A DNA stretch of 64,000 nt from Clostridiales bacterium (lineage in GTDB: Bacteria > Bacillota > Clostridia > Peptostreptococcales > Anaerovoracaceae). The DNA is taken from NCBI GenBank assembly GCA_012841925.1, contig DUTT01000069.1:1-64000 (forward strand), given 5' to 3'. A program made the position numbers and the translations under genes. This document shows, piece by piece, positions 1-64,000 of this stretch. The notes beneath the pieces were generated by a model, which saw only the letters and a list, made by a program, of their open reading frames with translations, searched no databases and was not told where the DNA came from. Numbering within the stretch: position 1 is the first letter of the stretch; the number at the start of each line of letters is the position of its first letter.

Positions 1-293
1 ATCCGTTTCAGCTTGAGTATCCGTCGCTTGGCCAGAATCAGGAAGGTCTCAGAGAGAGGTTGTCGTACGTCGTGCGCTCATTGGCCGCACTGGGCCTGGA
101 CGGGCTGGAGTGCTATTATCCCACTCACGATCAGGACGAGACCGAATTTCTCCTGGCGCTTGCAGACGAATGCGGGCTTCTCGTATCGATCGGGTCGGAT
201 GACCACGGTCCCGGAGCCCGAACGGTCAAGCGTATGCATTCATTTCAGGTCGAGGTGGACGTAAACCGGCTGCGCTGGATCGACGAACTATAG
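1..293 (+). CDS. PHP-domain phosphoesterase, C-terminal fragment
   Basis: The window opens inside this gene; about 97 codons remain, in the frame beginning at base 3. The visible part has the end of a PHP (polymerase and histidinol phosphatase) domain: GLDGLECYYPTHDQDE, then a short helix, then LLVSIGSDDHGPG, where SDDHG supplies the late metal-binding Asp and His typical of the fold. Stand-alone PHP proteins of this type are metal-dependent phosphoesterases, often acting on 3',5'-nucleotides or oligonucleotides, but the substrate cannot be deduced from the tail. A hairpin with a T-run about 85 bases after the stop probably ends its transcript. Family assignment is good; exact function is unknown. 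Confidence 0.75.
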   Translation, partial: PFQLEYPSLGQNQEGLRERLSYVVRSLAALGLDGLECYYPTHDQDETEFLLALADECGLLVSIGSDDHGPGARTVKRMHSFQVEVDVNRLRWIDEL

Positions 294-56689: not shown

Positions 56690-59600
56690 ATGACAAAACG
56701 AAAAAGAAGAGCGATCGTCATTTCGATTCTTGTGTTCGCCGGCACGATTGTAGGGATGTTGCATATCAACCGCAGCCCTGACATGTCGAATGTGCGGGCT
56801 GTCGGCGGTATGCTGGAATTGCAGACGGGCGAAGCGGGCGAGGTTGCGCCCATACTGCTCGACGGGGAGTGGGAGCTCTATCCGGGCGTGCTCATCGATC
56901 CGGGCAGGCTTGACGGTGACTTGAACGAATCCGACGGTGACACGACGGAACTGCAGCAGAGCGGGCAGACAGGGGTAGCGGACCCCTTCGCGGCTCACCG
57001 CGATATCCGCACGCTGATTCAGGTTCCCGGACCCTGGGATAATGCGCTGCCGAACGGCGGACCGTCCGGATCGGGGACATACCGCCTCCTGATTACCGTG
57101 CCCGAAGAAGGAGCGTACGGCATCAAAACCGGCACGATCCGGACGTCTGCGCGCATCTATGCGAACGGCAACCTGCTCACTTCGATTGGAACGCCGTCGA
57201 CGGACTACGCGACCTACGAACTCGGCAGCAGACCGCAGACGGTGTATGTGACGAGCGACCAGAGGCACATCGAACTCGTCATCCACGTATCGAGTTACGA
57301 CTACCGGGCAGGCGGCATCCTTAAACCGATCCGCTTCGGAGCGGCCGAAATTATCGACAGGCAGGACAACCAAAGCCGTGCCGTGGACAGCGTCGCAGTC
57401 ATCATCTGCCTGGCGTTTGCACTGCATTCATTTTTCAGCTGGCTACAGCGAAAGAATGATCGCTTCCTGTTACACGCAGCAATTGTAGGCTTGTTTCTCG
57501 CACTGTACCTGTCGACGCTCGGCGAACAGCTTCTCGGACTCATCTACCATTACGATTACTATATGCGTCTGCGGATCCAGATTTTCTGCATGCCGACGAT
57601 TGCAATGCAGCTTCTGCTGTTTACAAAGAATCTTCTGCCGGGACACGGCAACCGGTTTGCACTCCGCGCCAATCTCTGGTATCTCGCAGCGCTCGTGCTC
57701 TTTGTGCTCAACAAGCCAAGCAGCAGCATGTTCATCCCCATCGGCGTATCGCAGCTCCTCATCAGCATCGGCATGGTCGTCACATTTGTACATATCGCAT
57801 GGATCATGTTCCGCTCTATGGGCGACAACGAGGACTCCTCCGACTATCTGGTTGTCATCTTCGCGTCGCTGTTTTCGTACTGGACCGTGATGCTCCTAAA
57901 AATGCTGTTCGAGATGAATACCGGTAAAATTCCAGATATCATGATCGTGCTCACGTCGTTTGTGGTGTCGCTCATGGCCGGCGACCGCTTGCAGGCCGAC
58001 CGCAGGCGTGCCCAGGCGCTGTCCGAGGAACTGCTCGCCAGCGACCACATGAAGAACGACTTCCTGGCTGCGACGTCACAGGAGCTCCGGACACCGCTGC
58101 ACGATGTGATCGACTTGTCGCGCCGACTGCTCGAGGGGCAGAAGGGCCCTCTGAATCAGGAACAGCAGGAGGATTTGTACCTCATCCTCAACGAGAGTTT
58201 CCGACTGTCCGGTCTCGTTGACGATCTGTCAGACGCCACGCCGCTGGCCGACTCGCAGCTTCCGCTCAACTGCAAAGCCTTTCGCGCACAGGACGTGTGC
58301 CGCTCGCTCGTGGAGGAGATGCAGCTTCTGACGGGTGACGAACATTCCGTCGTTCTCACGTGCGACATCGAGGATGATTTCCCGGAAATCTACGCCGATG
58401 CGGAGCGGTTTAAGCAGATTGTTTTTCACTTGCTGCACAATGCGGTCAAGTTTACAGATCAGGGCCATGTCGCCATCCGTGCGGCGGTGCGCGACGGCAT
58501 GGCTGAGTGTTCCGTGGAGGATACGGGGCGGGGCATCCCCAAAGCGCATATAAACAGGGTGTTTGACAGTCTGTATCGCTACGGAGAGGAAGAGGACGGT
58601 CACGGGCTCGGCCTGGGACTTACGATTGCGCGCCGCCTCGTCGAACAGCACGGCGGGACGATCCGCGTGCAGTCCGAAGAGGGCCGCGGATCCGTGTTTT
58701 CGTTTACGGTGCCACTTTACCAACCGGAAGAAACGTCCCAAAAGGCGTCCCCAAAAGACGCTGCATCCGGAACCGCAGCGTCCGGCATGTATGTTATTTA
58801 CGGATCGCCTGCAGAAGCCGTCACGATACAGACCATTCAGGAGCAGGCGTCCACACAGACCGGCCCCGTCATCCTCGTCGTCGACAGCGAAGCGACCAGT
58901 CGGAGCGTGCTGCTCGACCTGCTCGCTCCGGAAGGCTATCGCCTGTTGTTTACAGGAGATACCGACGACCTGCTGCTACAGATTAAGAGACACGACGTCG
59001 ACCTGGTGATCCTGGATTTGATGCAGCCCGATGTCGAAGGCGTGCTGCTGTGCGAGGCCATCCGTCAGGAGTATGCGATGGCCGAGCTGCCGGTGCTGAT
59101 GTTCACCTCCTCCGGCCGACGCCGCGACCTGGCGCGCTCGTTCCAGTGCGGCGCTAACGATTATGTCAAAAAACCGGCAGACGCTGCGGAACTGAAGTCG
59201 CGCGTGGCCTCCCTGCTGCAGATGAAGCTCTCCGCGCGGGAAGCGCTGGAAAAGGAATTGCACTATTTTTACTACGAGATATCGCCACACTTTTTATACA
59301 ATACGCTCAACACGATCATCGGCCTCAGCTACAGCGACGGCGAGGCGGCCCGGTCCGCGCTCACGAGCCTGGGGACGTATCTGAGGGGCAAGATGGAATA
59401 CTACAGTCACAACAGCCTGATTGCGATGAGCGAAGAGCTCGAGCTGGTGGAAGCTTACCTCGACATCGAAAAGCTTCGCTTCGGCGATCGCCTGCAGACG
59501 GAGATGGACATCGAAGAAGTCGCTCTCTCGGTGCCTCCGCTGTTTTTGCAGCCACTGGTGGAAAATGCAGTCCGTCACGGTATGGCAGACGGGCGGAATC

Positions 59601-59839
59601 TTTGCGTTCGGATTACCGTGCATCGCAAGGGGAACGGTCTGTGCGTCATCACGGTGGAGGATAACGGTCCCGGTATGACAAAAGAACAGCAGAGCCGGCT
59701 GATGGACGGCGACAGCGAGGGCCTGGGTTTCGCCAATGTGTTGCGTCGGATCCGGCTGATTCCGGGGGCTGCCATGCGCATTGAAAGCGAACCGGGGCAG
59801 GGGAGCCGGATCATCATCGAACTGAAGGAGGGACGCTGA
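56690..59839 (+). CDS. Hybrid sensor kinase: 7TMR-DISM, HisKA-like (His to Gln), HATPase, receiver, His_kinase, HATPase
   Basis: A 1049-residue membrane sensor. TM at about 7-25; an extracytoplasmic 7TMR-DISM-type ligand domain (about 60-225, [21 protein letters not shown]); a seven-TM block (about 235-440); a first kinase module whose H-box reads SQELRTPL, with Gln464 (CAG) in place of the phospho-accepting His, and HATPase motifs NAVKFT, DTGRGIP and [10 protein letters not shown]; a receiver domain with Asp776 (VILDLM) and Lys828 (VKKP); then a LytS-type His_kinase module with His867 in [10 protein letters not shown] and a second HATPase ([17 protein letters not shown]). Phosphotransfer probably starts at His867; the first module may be a pseudokinase or ATP sensor. 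The gene overlaps the response regulator by one base, so they form a pair. Confidence 0.88.
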
Positions 59840-60954
59840 TGCGAGTCATCCTGGCAGACGACGAACGGCTGGCGCTCGATGTCCTGGAACGATTGCTCGG
59901 CGTCCACGGCGATGTGGATATCGTCGGCCTGTATACCGATCCTGCGCTTCTGCTCGAAGAATTCGAAGAGAAAAAGCCTGACGTCGCTTTTCTCGATATA
60001 GAAATGGGCTCGACGAGCGGTCTGGAGCTCGGCAACGAACTGCTGAGCCGGTGCAACCGTCTGGAAATCGTGTTCGTTACCGCTTACGCGCACTACGCGA
60101 TCGAAGCGTTCGACCTCAACGCCATCGATTATCTTCTAAAGCCGGTGCGACCGAAGCGACTCGCCGAAACGATCGCACGGCTTCAGCAGAGCATCCAAAT
60201 GTTTTCGGACTCTGTGGCGGAAGGTGATGCCGGCAAGGCAGATGAGCGGCTTTACGTTCGCAGCTTCGGGGGATTCGAAGTGCTGTCTCCTTCGGGCCAG
60301 CCGCTTGAATGGCGGACGCAAAAGACCCGCGAACTGATGGCCTACCTTTGGTTTTTCGGCGGCCAGCCGATGGACAAGGTGCAGATCGTGGAAGCGCTGT
60401 TCCCTGATAAGGCTCACGAACAGGGGCGGACGCTTTTGCACACGACGGTCTACCAGTTGAGGCGAAGTCTGAGCAGCGCCGGGTTTCCGAACGGTGTGCA
60501 GTATCGCAACGATCGCTACTGGCTCGACATCCCCCTCGAAAGCGACGTGGATGCGCTTGCCTCCATTGCGGAGAAGCCGCAGCTCACCGAGGACGATGTC
60601 CGTAAGGTGCTCGAGCTCTACCGGGGTGAGTTTCTGCAGGAAGGCTACCCGTGGCTCGGTCACGAACAATTCCGCTACAACCTCGATATCTATCGTGCGC
60701 TCGCAGGCTACCTGGAGCAGGGCGGCTCAGCCAATCCCGAGATCCTCGAGTCGGTGCTCCGGCTTTTGTACGAAATGGACCCGTTCTCTGACGCGACGGC
60801 TTCCATCGTAATTCGGACGCTGGGCGAGCAGGGAAGACGGCGTGCCCTGGAGTTTTTTTATCGCCATTACGCCGACAGTCTGAAGAAAGAAATCGGCGTC
60901 GACCCTTCTAAAGAATGTGTAACTCTCTACGAAAAGTACATGGTATCTGACTGA
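59839..60954 (+). CDS. SARP-like response regulator (receiver, winged helix, BTAD)
   Basis: A 371-residue regulator. Residues 1-120 are a receiver with the acidic pair in ADDE, Asp53 in FLDIE and Lys101 in LLKPV. Residues about 140-225 form an OmpR/SARP-type winged helix (FGGFEVLSPSGQPLEWRTQKTRELMAYLW, TLLHTTVYQLRRSL). The rest is a bacterial transcriptional activation domain of helical TPR-like repeats (YRGEFLQEGYPWLGHEQFRYNL, FYRHYADSLKKEIGVDPS). It is cognate to the upstream kinase. SARP-type regulators bind short direct repeats 11 bp apart just upstream of the -10; such repeats precede the next gene. Confidence 0.88.
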   Translation: MRVILADDERLALDVLERLLGVHGDVDIVGLYTDPALLLEEFEEKKPDVAFLDIEMGSTSGLELGNELLSRCNRLEIVFVTAYAHYAIEAFDLNAIDYLLKPVRPKRLAETIARLQQSIQMFSDSVAEGDAGKADERLYVRSFGGFEVLSPSGQPLEWRTQKTRELMAYLWFFGGQPMDKVQIVEALFPDKAHEQGRTLLHTTVYQLRRSLSSAGFPNGVQYRNDRYWLDIPLESDVDALASIAEKPQLTEDDVRKVLELYRGEFLQEGYPWLGHEQFRYNLDIYRALAGYLEQGGSANPEILESVLRLLYEMDPFSDATASIVIRTLGEQGRRRALEFFYRHYADSLKKEIGVDPSKECVTLYEKYMVSD

Positions 60955-60970
60955 AAATCCTAAAATAAGT

Positions 60971-60983
60971 GTAACCTTGTTAC
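60971..60983. other. Perfect GTAAC-3-GTTAC dyad
   Basis: A 5-bp inverted repeat with a CTT centre, 17 bases after the regulator stop. It is too small for a terminator; a protein-binding site is possible. Confidence 0.35.
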
Positions 60984-61025
60984 GAAACATGAAAATCTTC
61001 GCAAATAACGGCTACTTTGCGTGAT

Positions 61026-61060
61026 TTGTTCAGCAATTGTTCAGAGGAGTTTCCTATAAT
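61026..61060 (+). promoter_or_regulatory. Promoter of the surface-protein gene with SARP-like direct repeats
   Basis: TATAAT at 61055-61060 has no recognisable -35. Instead TTGTTCAG is repeated at 61026-61033 and 61037-61044, period 11 bp; extended to 11-mers, 9 of 11 positions agree. The second repeat ends 10 bases before the -10. This is the geometry of promoters activated by SARP-family regulators, and a SARP-like regulator is encoded immediately upstream. Confidence 0.6.
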
Positions 61061-61142
61061 AAAGCAGTTGGACTATATGCATCGAACGGACTTGGAGTGT
61101 CCGCGATTCAAAATAAAAATCCAGGAGACCCAGGAGGTTGTT

Positions 61143-64000
61143 ATGAACAAGTCTATGAAAAAAGTGACCGCGCTCGTGCTGACGCTGGCTTTGGTGATGG
61201 GAGTGGTGGTATTTCCAACATATAGTGCGGGAGGTGTCGATAAAACGACCTTAATCAGTCCTGCCTATGTGAAGGAAATTAAAGTTACTCAAAACGGAGT
61301 AAACGTTCCTGATGGGGGTAATATTGCATACGATGATGATATAAGAGTAAAGCTGGAATTCGGAGTTCCGGTGATTGGGGATGACGGATTAGATCTAAGT
61401 GTAGACGGTAATAACGATGCCACTTTCGTACAACACGGCGATTGGATGAGAATTAAAATCGCAGAGGGTTTTAAGATTGTGTCAGGCACAGGGCCATATG
61501 CATTGGAACATGGTTCCGGTCTCGACAAAAGAGTCGTTGGAACGCTTAACTTCGTAACAGAAGGCTCTGGTATCAATGCCCAGATATTCGCAGAAATTGA
61601 TTTTGATGGCGACACGGAAGTTTTCGACGGATCGGAGGGTTGGCATTCAATTATATGTGACTTTAATGTAACGCTTAAATACAATGGGGTCGGACAAGGG
61701 ACGACTGATATAACATATGATGTGGAAATTATTGACAAAGCCTACAAAGTGCCGGTTCCGAAGCAGCCAGAAGGCTACTCTGGAGAAAAGAAAGGCGAAA
61801 TCAGCGGCACGATAAGCGGAGATACCATAACGTGGTCCGTGGAGCTCAGATCTCTGGATTCAAGTTTTAATCCGACTCCTTTTGCAGCAGGAACAACTTT
61901 TTATGACAATTTAAGCTCGGTGGGCGCATATGTGCCCGACTCATTTAGGGTAGGTTTGTTGCCTGATGGAAGCGGCGCTGTAGCTCCCGTAGCACCTAAT
62001 CCTGTTGCAGAGTACTCAGGGAATATATTGACCTTTGATTTAGAGGGACAGCCGGGGATTGTGTATGTCTTTTTTGAGACAAAAATTTCTAATACAGACT
62101 ACTATAATCCTGGTGGGGGTGTCATCACCAATAAGGCTCAAATTCAAAAAGATTCGACTATAGAAGTAGAAATGGAAGATACAGTCTCGTTTAATTTTGG
62201 ATGGATAAAAAAAGAAGGGGCCGTTCATAATTACGATCATAAAACAAATAAAGGTGAAATATGGTGGACCATAACCGCGAACCAACAGGGACTATCTTTG
62301 ACCAATGCTATAATCACAGATATTTTACCTACCGGGCTTGAGTTTTTGTCGGCTGAGTGGAACACTTTCGATGGAACTAATTGGAACCTAGCTGGAACTT
62401 TCCCCACACAGCCTCCCGGGGATAACTATAATTTGGGGAACATCAATACTCCGGTGCAGCTGATAATTAAAACAAAAGTTGATGATGTAAGTTATAATAT
62501 CGGCCATGAAGTGCAGTATTTCACGAATGATGCCACGATAATCTGGGATGAGTATGACGGAACAGGGGCTGGGGCAGGCACAGGGGGGAAGACCGTAGGA
62601 ATCGGTCTCAATCCTATCAACAAGAAGGCTGGCTCCTATGATGTTCTGACACACACAATACCGTGGACGGTGACAATAAAAGAATCTGATGTAAACGTAG
62701 ATCTTTATGTGCTCGAATTATTGGTTTACGGGTCGGCTACGCTCAATTTAAATACAATTACTGGGTCCCTTACTTGGGCCGAGGGAACCTCGATAGCGCC
62801 CAGACTGACGATGGATTGGGATACGCTCAAGGGGCTGAGTCCGACACCGACGCAGACGTTGAATCAACGGTACGAGAGCAGTAGTTTTGCTGCAGTTTCA
62901 GCTACAGACGACCTTGCACATGTGATTTACACTTTGTACGATGGTGCTGATGCTGTGGCTGATGTTTTACTTGTCGCCAAAAGTGATGGTGATGGGATAG
63001 ATGTATCTACTAATTCTCAAAGTTTCTCCTTTACTACAAAGGTGACGAATCCAGATATTTACGCGGGGAATACGTCAAAAGCCATACCGAATACGGCTGT
63101 GCTTTTCAGTGCGAATAAGTATATCAACAGGTCTACTGCCTATGCGCAATATGATGGCAAGATGCTGGTCAAAGACATGCTCAAAAGGAATGACGCCCTG
63201 CTCAATTCATCTGACGAAGTTACAGACAAAAATGGCACTGCGGCAAGCGTTACGCAGGGGTATAACTATGAAGATCATTCCGTGGTCTTTAGGCTCCATA
63301 TAAATGCGAATGGTTTGGATCTAACGAACGATATAACGGCAGATCCTGCAAAGTCAGTCGGTGATGTTGTTCTTGAGGACATACTTCCGAAAGGATGGGA
63401 TTTTATACCTGTTGAACCCGGCAAGAATTTCCTGTTATACGAAGGAACTGGGGGAACAGACGGAAAAGTAACTGCAGTGACCGAAATACTGAGCCCAGTG
63501 TTCGTGTCCGCTGCCTTCACTGCGCTGAATCCGCCAACTGAGCAGTCGGGCAAGGTCGAGTTTACTTTTACCACGTTGGATAAACCTTACGTTATCCTGC
63601 TGAGGGCAGAGCCTTCCGATGGCACGATTGAAGACTATTTTAAGGAAAATGGGACGTATAACCTTAAGAATACGGCAACGCTGAAAGGGGAAAATGGTCT
63701 GTCAGAATTGAAGCATGAGCAGTCTGTTCGAGTCATCAGCGACGTGCTTAAAAAAGAGCGGGATATATCTATAGCGGGTCTTGTAACATGGACAGTTGAA
63801 TATCGCCCCAATAATATCGGTGATAAAAACATCGGCGCTAAGATTACAGACGTTCTGCCCGATGGAATCGATCTTAGGACAGACGCATCCGGTAATCTTG
63901 TCGTGACTGAAAGTAGCGGGGACAATATCGAAGTTTGGGAGATGACTTTAAACATTGATGGCACTTATACTCCTAAGGCTCCTAAAGAAGATGTAGCAGC
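61143..64000 (+). CDS. Large secreted repeat-domain surface protein (DUF11/adhesin-like), 5' part
   Basis: I read this frame without a stop from ATG 61143 to the window end: 952 codons plus two bases. AGGAGG stands just upstream. A signal peptide (MNKSMKK, hydrophobic core ALVLTLALVMGVVVFP, cleavage near TYSA-GG) is followed by beta-rich repeats. The phrase ITDILPTGLEFL (near 62330), LEDILPKGWDFI (near 63380) and ITDVLPDGIDL (near 63850), each with a following NTA/NKA strand, is the hallmark of DUF11/isopeptide-type adhesin domains. The start of the gene has neighbour-like codon use, but most of it is clearly AT-richer (AAT, ATA, TTA codons), suggesting transfer. Any sortase or anchoring signal lies beyond 64000. 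Probably cell-wall attached. Confidence 0.85.
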   Translation, partial: MNKSMKKVTALVLTLALVMGVVVFPTYSAGGVDKTTLISPAYVKEIKVTQNGVNVPDGGNIAYDDDIRVKLEFGVPVIGDDGLDLSVDGNNDATFVQHGDWMRIKIAEGFKIVSGTGPYALEHGSGLDKRVVGTLNFVTEGSGINAQIFAEIDFDGDTEVFDGSEGWHSIICDFNVTLKYNGVGQGTTDITYDVEIIDKAYKVPVPKQPEGYSGEKKGEISGTISGDTITWSVELRSLDSSFNPTPFAAGTTFYDNLSSVGAYVPDSFRVGLLPDGSGAVAPVAPNPVAEYSGNILTFDLEGQPGIVYVFFETKISNTDYYNPGGGVITNKAQIQKDSTIEVEMEDTVSFNFGWIKKEGAVHNYDHKTNKGEIWWTITANQQGLSLTNAIITDILPTGLEFLSAEWNTFDGTNWNLAGTFPTQPPGDNYNLGNINTPVQLIIKTKVDDVSYNIGHEVQYFTNDATIIWDEYDGTGAGAGTGGKTVGIGLNPINKKAGSYDVLTHTIPWTVTIKESDVNVDLYVLELLVYGSATLNLNTITGSLTWAEGTSIAPRLTMDWDTLKGLSPTPTQTLNQRYESSSFAAVSATDDLAHVIYTLYDGADAVADVLLVAKSDGDGIDVSTNSQSFSFTTKVTNPDIYAGNTSKAIPNTAVLFSANKYINRSTAYAQYDGKMLVKDMLKRNDALLNSSDEVTDKNGTAASVTQGYNYEDHSVVFRLHINANGLDLTNDITADPAKSVGDVVLEDILPKGWDFIPVEPGKNFLLYEGTGGTDGKVTAVTEILSPVFVSAAFTALNPPTEQSGKVEFTFTTLDKPYVILLRAEPSDGTIEDYFKENGTYNLKNTATLKGENGLSELKHEQSVRVISDVLKKERDISIAGLVTWTVEYRPNNIGDKNIGAKITDVLPDGIDLRTDASGNLVVTESSGDNIEVWEMTLNIDGTYTPKAPKEDVA

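Follow-up and report, generated by a model that had tools for sequence, protein, structure and literature searches.

The window, by which we mean the whole 64,000-nucleotide stretch that was analysed, contains on its forward strand a kinase, a regulator and a surface-protein gene. The kinase gene (56690..59839) encodes a hybrid sensor histidine kinase of 1049 aa, in which Pfam recognised a weak 7TMR-DISM_7TM domain, HisKA, HATPase_c, a receiver, a LytS-type His_kinase domain and a second ATPase. The start of the regulator gene (59839..60954) overlaps the kinase stop by one base, which implies that the two are co-expressed. Its product, a response regulator of 371 aa, consists of a LytTR-like receiver, an OmpR-type winged helix (wHTH) and a BTAD, as judged from Pfam, profiles, an AlphaFold model and Foldseek. 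The preliminary description had paired a receiver-winged helix-BTAD protein with a giant hybrid kinase, and Pfam confirmed both proteins. The receiver residues D53 and K101 are invariant in 16 relatives, and the protein has the hallmarks of a two-component response regulator, namely a receiver with a phosphorylatable aspartate and a kinase gene that overlaps it upstream. The recognition helix (residues 193-213, HEQGRTLLHTTVYQLRRSLSS) is encoded at 60415..60477 and the wing, a beta hairpin (residues 217-231), at 60487..60531; the AlphaFold model and co-variation were used to place both, together with the alignment to AfsR in the case of the helix. A scan of the genome's contigs for regulators with exact peptide patterns returned distant receivers only.

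The third gene (61143..64000, running past the window end) encodes an LPXTG surface protein of 1672 aa in all, with a signal peptide, SpaA, DUF7601 and DUF5979 domains and an LPKTG anchor. Its G+C content is 0.44-0.45 (window 61000-64000) versus 0.55-0.60 in the kinase and regulator genes (57000-61000), which suggests that the surface protein is of separate origin or has been exchanged. The genome had been described as Clostridia-like, and this fits the distribution of Spo0A: 31 of 61 relatives possess it, and Bacillus subtilis is the sole one of 14 control genomes to do so; given that distribution, an assignment to the Bacillota, Clostridia-like, is reasonable.

The gap of 188 nt between the regulator and surface-protein genes holds two copies of the octamer TTGTTCAG, at 61026..61033 and 61037..61044 on the forward strand, 11 bp from start to start and separated by 3 bp. 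A perfect TATAAT (61055..61060, same strand) begins 10 bp past the second copy, and the stretch with both copies and this element reads gatTTGTTCAGcaaTTGTTCAGaggagtttccTATAATaa. On the basis of sequence and comparison, the copies are predicted to be the half-sites of an operator, the first of which covers the usual -35 position. The -10 element itself was read from the sequence and supported by a hexamer check and a promoter scan, and it stands without a -35: hexamers at spacers of 15-19 match TTGACA at only 0-3 of six positions, and the scan of 60880-61180 did not find a two-hexamer promoter. The octamer pair, its spacing and the isolated -10 are thus in the sequence exactly as first described. 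A ribosome-binding site, AGGAGG (61132..61137, forward strand), can be read directly. Since no terminator was found between the regulator and surface-protein genes, read-through could add expression. A perfect 5-bp inverted repeat (GTAAC-ctt-GTTAC, 60971-60983) lies past the end of the regulator gene, ahead of the direct repeats. An 11-bp site upstream of the kinase gene, which would point to autoregulation, was looked for and not found.

A family of two copies in a single intergenic gap often arises by chance, and the octamer on its own shows no enrichment, with 3 occurrences in the window versus 1.43 expected, so that the pair could be a chance duplication near a constitutive promoter. However, when the 188-nt gap was put through 20,000 dinucleotide shuffles, a perfect 8-mer pair of period 11 appeared in only 0.22% of them, and in 0 of 20,000 once a perfect TATAAT 8-12 bp downstream was included. 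Together with the independent recurrence of the same spacing at many loci, described below, these frequencies leave chance a negligible probability. The exact pair is unique in the whole 1.61-Mb assembly. A search of that assembly for other genomic targets, allowing 3 mismatches, gave six hits, which is the chance level according to a reversed-pattern control; the hits that were inspected lacked a -10.

Homologous loci were collected solely on the basis of protein similarity, with either the whole regulator or its wHTH-BTAD half as the query, and the DNA after each regulator stop was inspected for repeats. Most of the loci fetched first contained two tandem copies, 11 bp apart from start to start and followed by a -10, in various spellings (elsewhere TTTGTGAG, TTTGCGAG, TTTGGGAG, TTGTTTAT, TTTGTCAG, TTGGTAAG and TTGTTGAG); the repeats vary between loci, yet match within each pair. 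A perfect 7-mer repeat at period 11 was present at 24 of 70 distinct regulator loci, compared with 0-9 of 70 at other periods from 7 to 30 and with 1 such repeat at period 11 in the regulator coding sequence as control. When a -10 was required as well, 32 of the 70 loci qualified at period 11; shuffled sequences did so in 1.4% of cases, reversed sequence gave 2, and periods other than 11 gave 0-4. In a wider set, the regulator gene is closely followed by a pair of 11-bp period and a -10 at 46 of 103 loci, whereas such sites occur at 1 of 16 control loci of other response regulators. The half-sites, registered by their own profile, yield the consensus TT(G/T)(G/T)TNAG. Of the 46 sites, 33 lie 10 bp and 10 lie 11 bp from the -10; this distance was not used in registering the half-sites, although a window of 8-12 bp was applied in calling the sites. 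More than half of the homologous loci, in the 70-locus and 103-locus sets alike, have no site that passes the threshold right after the regulator, and many of these may have distant targets. The comparison of related genomes that the preliminary description proposed has thus been made, and dozens of relatives that keep the regulator share both the repeats and their spacing from the -10. The arrangement of kinase, regulator and repeats is thus general: it recurs in dozens of bacteria that belong to this phylum but are only distantly related.

Some members of this collection deserve separate mention. Locus L128 (G376:C19) has three tandem 11-bp copies, GAAATTGTTTA, GAAATTGTTGA and GAAATTGTTGA, followed by TATAAT, which recalls the threefold sites that some SARPs have. 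At L126 and L129, too, a perfect 11-bp pair and a -10 lie behind a BTAD protein, here encoded in a long open frame (672 and 1091 aa, respectively). A changed genetic code was considered for the regulator of genome G001, because of in-frame stops in the alignment, and was rejected; the frame ends inside the BTAD region, and is read as having a shortened or shifted end.

The genes behind the repeats commonly encode exported proteins. By a simple hydropathy rule, the first downstream protein has a hydrophobic start resembling a signal peptide in 25 of 39 scored loci. At about eight other loci a receiver-like protein of 115-130 aa comes first, often followed by an exported giant. This degenerate receiver-like protein, behind the repeat promoter at L105 (6340-6735), L107, L097, L145, L148, L099, L229 and L089, is possibly a feedback element or a phosphate sink. 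Among the exceptions are L108, an ABC-transporter locus, and L180, where the locus is radical-SAM maturase-like, so that surface proteins are the common target, but not the sole one. At L180 (G195:C4) a TTTGTCAG pair follows the regulator, and the maturase-like gene cluster lies downstream in place of a surface protein.

Repeats missing from relatives that keep the three genes had been named in advance as evidence against the proposal; they are present, at the surface- or exported-protein gene, in relatives with the order kinase-regulator-target (L087, L091, L092 and L061/L094). In L092 (G188), 2.4 kb separate the regulator from the surface-protein homolog, and the pair (CTTGTGAG, TTTGTGAG, then 10 bp and TACAAT) is found at the surface-protein gene, away from the regulator. 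At L086 (G097), where a surface-protein homolog occurs without an adjoining kinase-regulator pair, there is no site within 700 bp upstream.

The relation between regulator and repeat was analysed by comparing, pair by pair, the similarity of 12-residue regulator windows with that of the repeats, restricted to pairs less than 45% identical. Among the windows that span receiver, wHTH and BTAD, residues 217-231, which form the wing, lead with a max-corrected p of 0.001. Next to it, residues 193-204, with which the recognition helix starts, reach a pointwise p of 0.0005 and a corrected value of 0.07, so that this window fails, on its own, the correction for all windows; the helix window 196-207 alone is weak (rho 0.06, reached in 79 of 1000 permutations). 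At the level of single columns, residues 199 and 198 follow half-site position 6 most closely, 206 and 202 likewise rank high for it, and residue 206 is near the top of the columns for position 4. T202 and Q206 align with T88 and R92 of AfsR, which contact the base pair at -36 and T-38, respectively (PMC10936776); when TTCA is used to superpose the repeats on the afs box, -38 and -36 fall on half-site positions 4 and 6. An LHTT or FHTT helix, combined with a TGTTCAG or TGTTTAG repeat, recurs in three further regulators that are 29-36% identical to the one in the window. The co-variation holds below 70% and below 50% identity, whereas the enrichment in the helix is no longer significant below 40% (25 sequences), and the co-variation is partly confounded by relatedness. 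On these comparisons, the spelling of the repeat appears to track the wing and the recognition helix with which the regulator is expected to contact DNA.

Another regulator, a global one of the OmpR family (WalR/VicR, PhoP or similar), might bind the repeats instead, as such proteins likewise use direct repeats of 11-bp period. The WalR box is TGTWAH-N5-TGTWAH, and TGTTCA-N5-TGTTCA in the window corresponds to it with one mismatch per half; moreover, the wHTH is common to SARP and PhoB-type domains, and the sites of AfsR and PhoP overlap in Streptomyces (PMC10972967). Membership of the WalR/VicR regulon was nevertheless rejected, as both halves have a C where the consensus needs an A. Six genomes contain two such loci each, and the repeats differ between the two (e.g. 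TTTGGGAG versus TGGTTTAG in G044), which is a strong argument against a single global binder. Besides, the sites were found via homology of the regulator and co-vary with the regulator next to them, and the loci of other response regulators gave just the 1 in 16 noted above. A WalR or PhoP reading was rejected on account of the paralogue spelling and the co-variation, and a global OmpR-family binder of any kind is highly improbable. The position of the repeats alone would also be compatible with steric blocking, i.e. the adjoining regulator could repress, its bound copies covering the spacer and the -35 position. However, a promoter without a -35 should need an activator, the corresponding SARP geometry activates in the case of AfsR (PMC10936776), and the regulator carries a BTAD, the part of AfsR that touches sigma and the alpha C-terminal domain. 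We therefore regard repression as very unlikely.

We consider it very probable, from sequence and analogy, that the TTGTTCAG copies are the operator of the adjoining regulator, which replaces the -35 and gives the surface-protein promoter an output set by the kinase. Each 11-bp repeat would take up one regulator molecule, so that two of them come to lie next to each other on a single face of the helix. They would stand in for the missing -35 by keeping sigma region 4 of RNA polymerase over a good -10, as AfsR does at the afsS promoter, making the surface-protein promoter dependent on the regulator. The hybrid kinase would phosphorylate the receiver on some signal and so set the output. Binding, activation, phosphorelay and signal are what we infer here; the afsS-like geometry, combined with an AfsR-like BTAD and winged helix, leads us to read the site as an activator-dependent promoter. 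The recurrence of the repeats, the placement of the sites, the co-variation and the SARP-type fold support the earlier proposal that the regulator switches on the surface protein. It seems rather likely, in addition, that this is a phylum-wide class, in which a receiver-linked SARP-domain regulator uses a private pair of 11-bp repeats to switch on a neighboring, usually exported giant, and in which the spelling co-evolves with the recognition helix and the wing, allowing a single genome to keep several insulated copies.

Almost all known SARP-domain activators come from the antibiotic clusters of actinomycetes. The present loci would provide the receiver-linked members in another phylum with a defined candidate operator, promoter geometry and target, and suggest that the SARP-style replacement of the -35 is general. 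The roughly 46 natural regulator-operator pairs could help to derive a code for DNA recognition and to build insulated promoter parts. The searchable literature contains no description of the surface-protein target class; likewise, we did not find an operator or target of a Firmicutes REC-SARP described there, and relevant work may lie beyond the literature covered.

The preliminary description called the regulator SARP-like, and its effector half indeed matches AfsR and EmbR in sequence and fold. Pfam detects the BTAD in the window regulator, whereas Trans_reg_C stays above E 0.001 there, yet is significant in the relative L105. A profile of 16 relatives matches EmbR (E 3e-19) and AfsR (E 2e-16) over wHTH and BTAD, the single sequence of L105 matches AfsR, and Foldseek aligned the AlphaFold model with AfsR (8hvr_I) over 254 columns (rmsd 3.2, TM 0.76 by target length). 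The winged helix is followed by a BTA domain, and the 11-bp direct repeats lie close upstream of the -10, over the -35 position; both features are those of the SARP domain. By sequence and model, then, the protein is best described as a two-component member of the SARP-domain kind. A classical cluster-situated Streptomyces SARP is ruled out by the N-terminal receiver and the LPXTG surface-protein neighbor. The same domain order occurs in the REC-wHTH-BTAD response regulators, which databases name the 'SAPR family' (COG3947); neither an operator nor a target of this family turned up in the literature searched. EmbR of Mycobacterium tuberculosis (PDB 2FEZ) shares the wHTH and BTAD across the effector half, but carries a C-terminal FHA domain where the window regulator has an N-terminal receiver.

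Finally, AfsR of Streptomyces coelicolor, which acts at the afs box of the afsS promoter, shares the wHTH and BTA domain. SARP sites are direct repeats of 11-bp period near the -10 that overlap the -35 position, and the afs box consists of two 11-bp direct repeats of which the first 8 bp are contacted and the last 3 are free (PMC10936776). The window has the same 8+3 bp unit, with the upstream unit over the -35. The afsS -35, TTCAGC (-38 to -33), has its counterpart in a TTCAGC that in the window likewise lies 20 bp before TATAAT, taking the afsS -10 as -12 to -7, as implied by PMC10936776. Of the two aligned contact residues, T88 is conserved as T202, whereas R92 is replaced by Q206. AfsR has NOD and TPR domains and no receiver, in contrast to the N-terminal receiver of the window regulator, and its target afsS serves antibiotic regulation, whereas the predicted target in the window is a surface protein.
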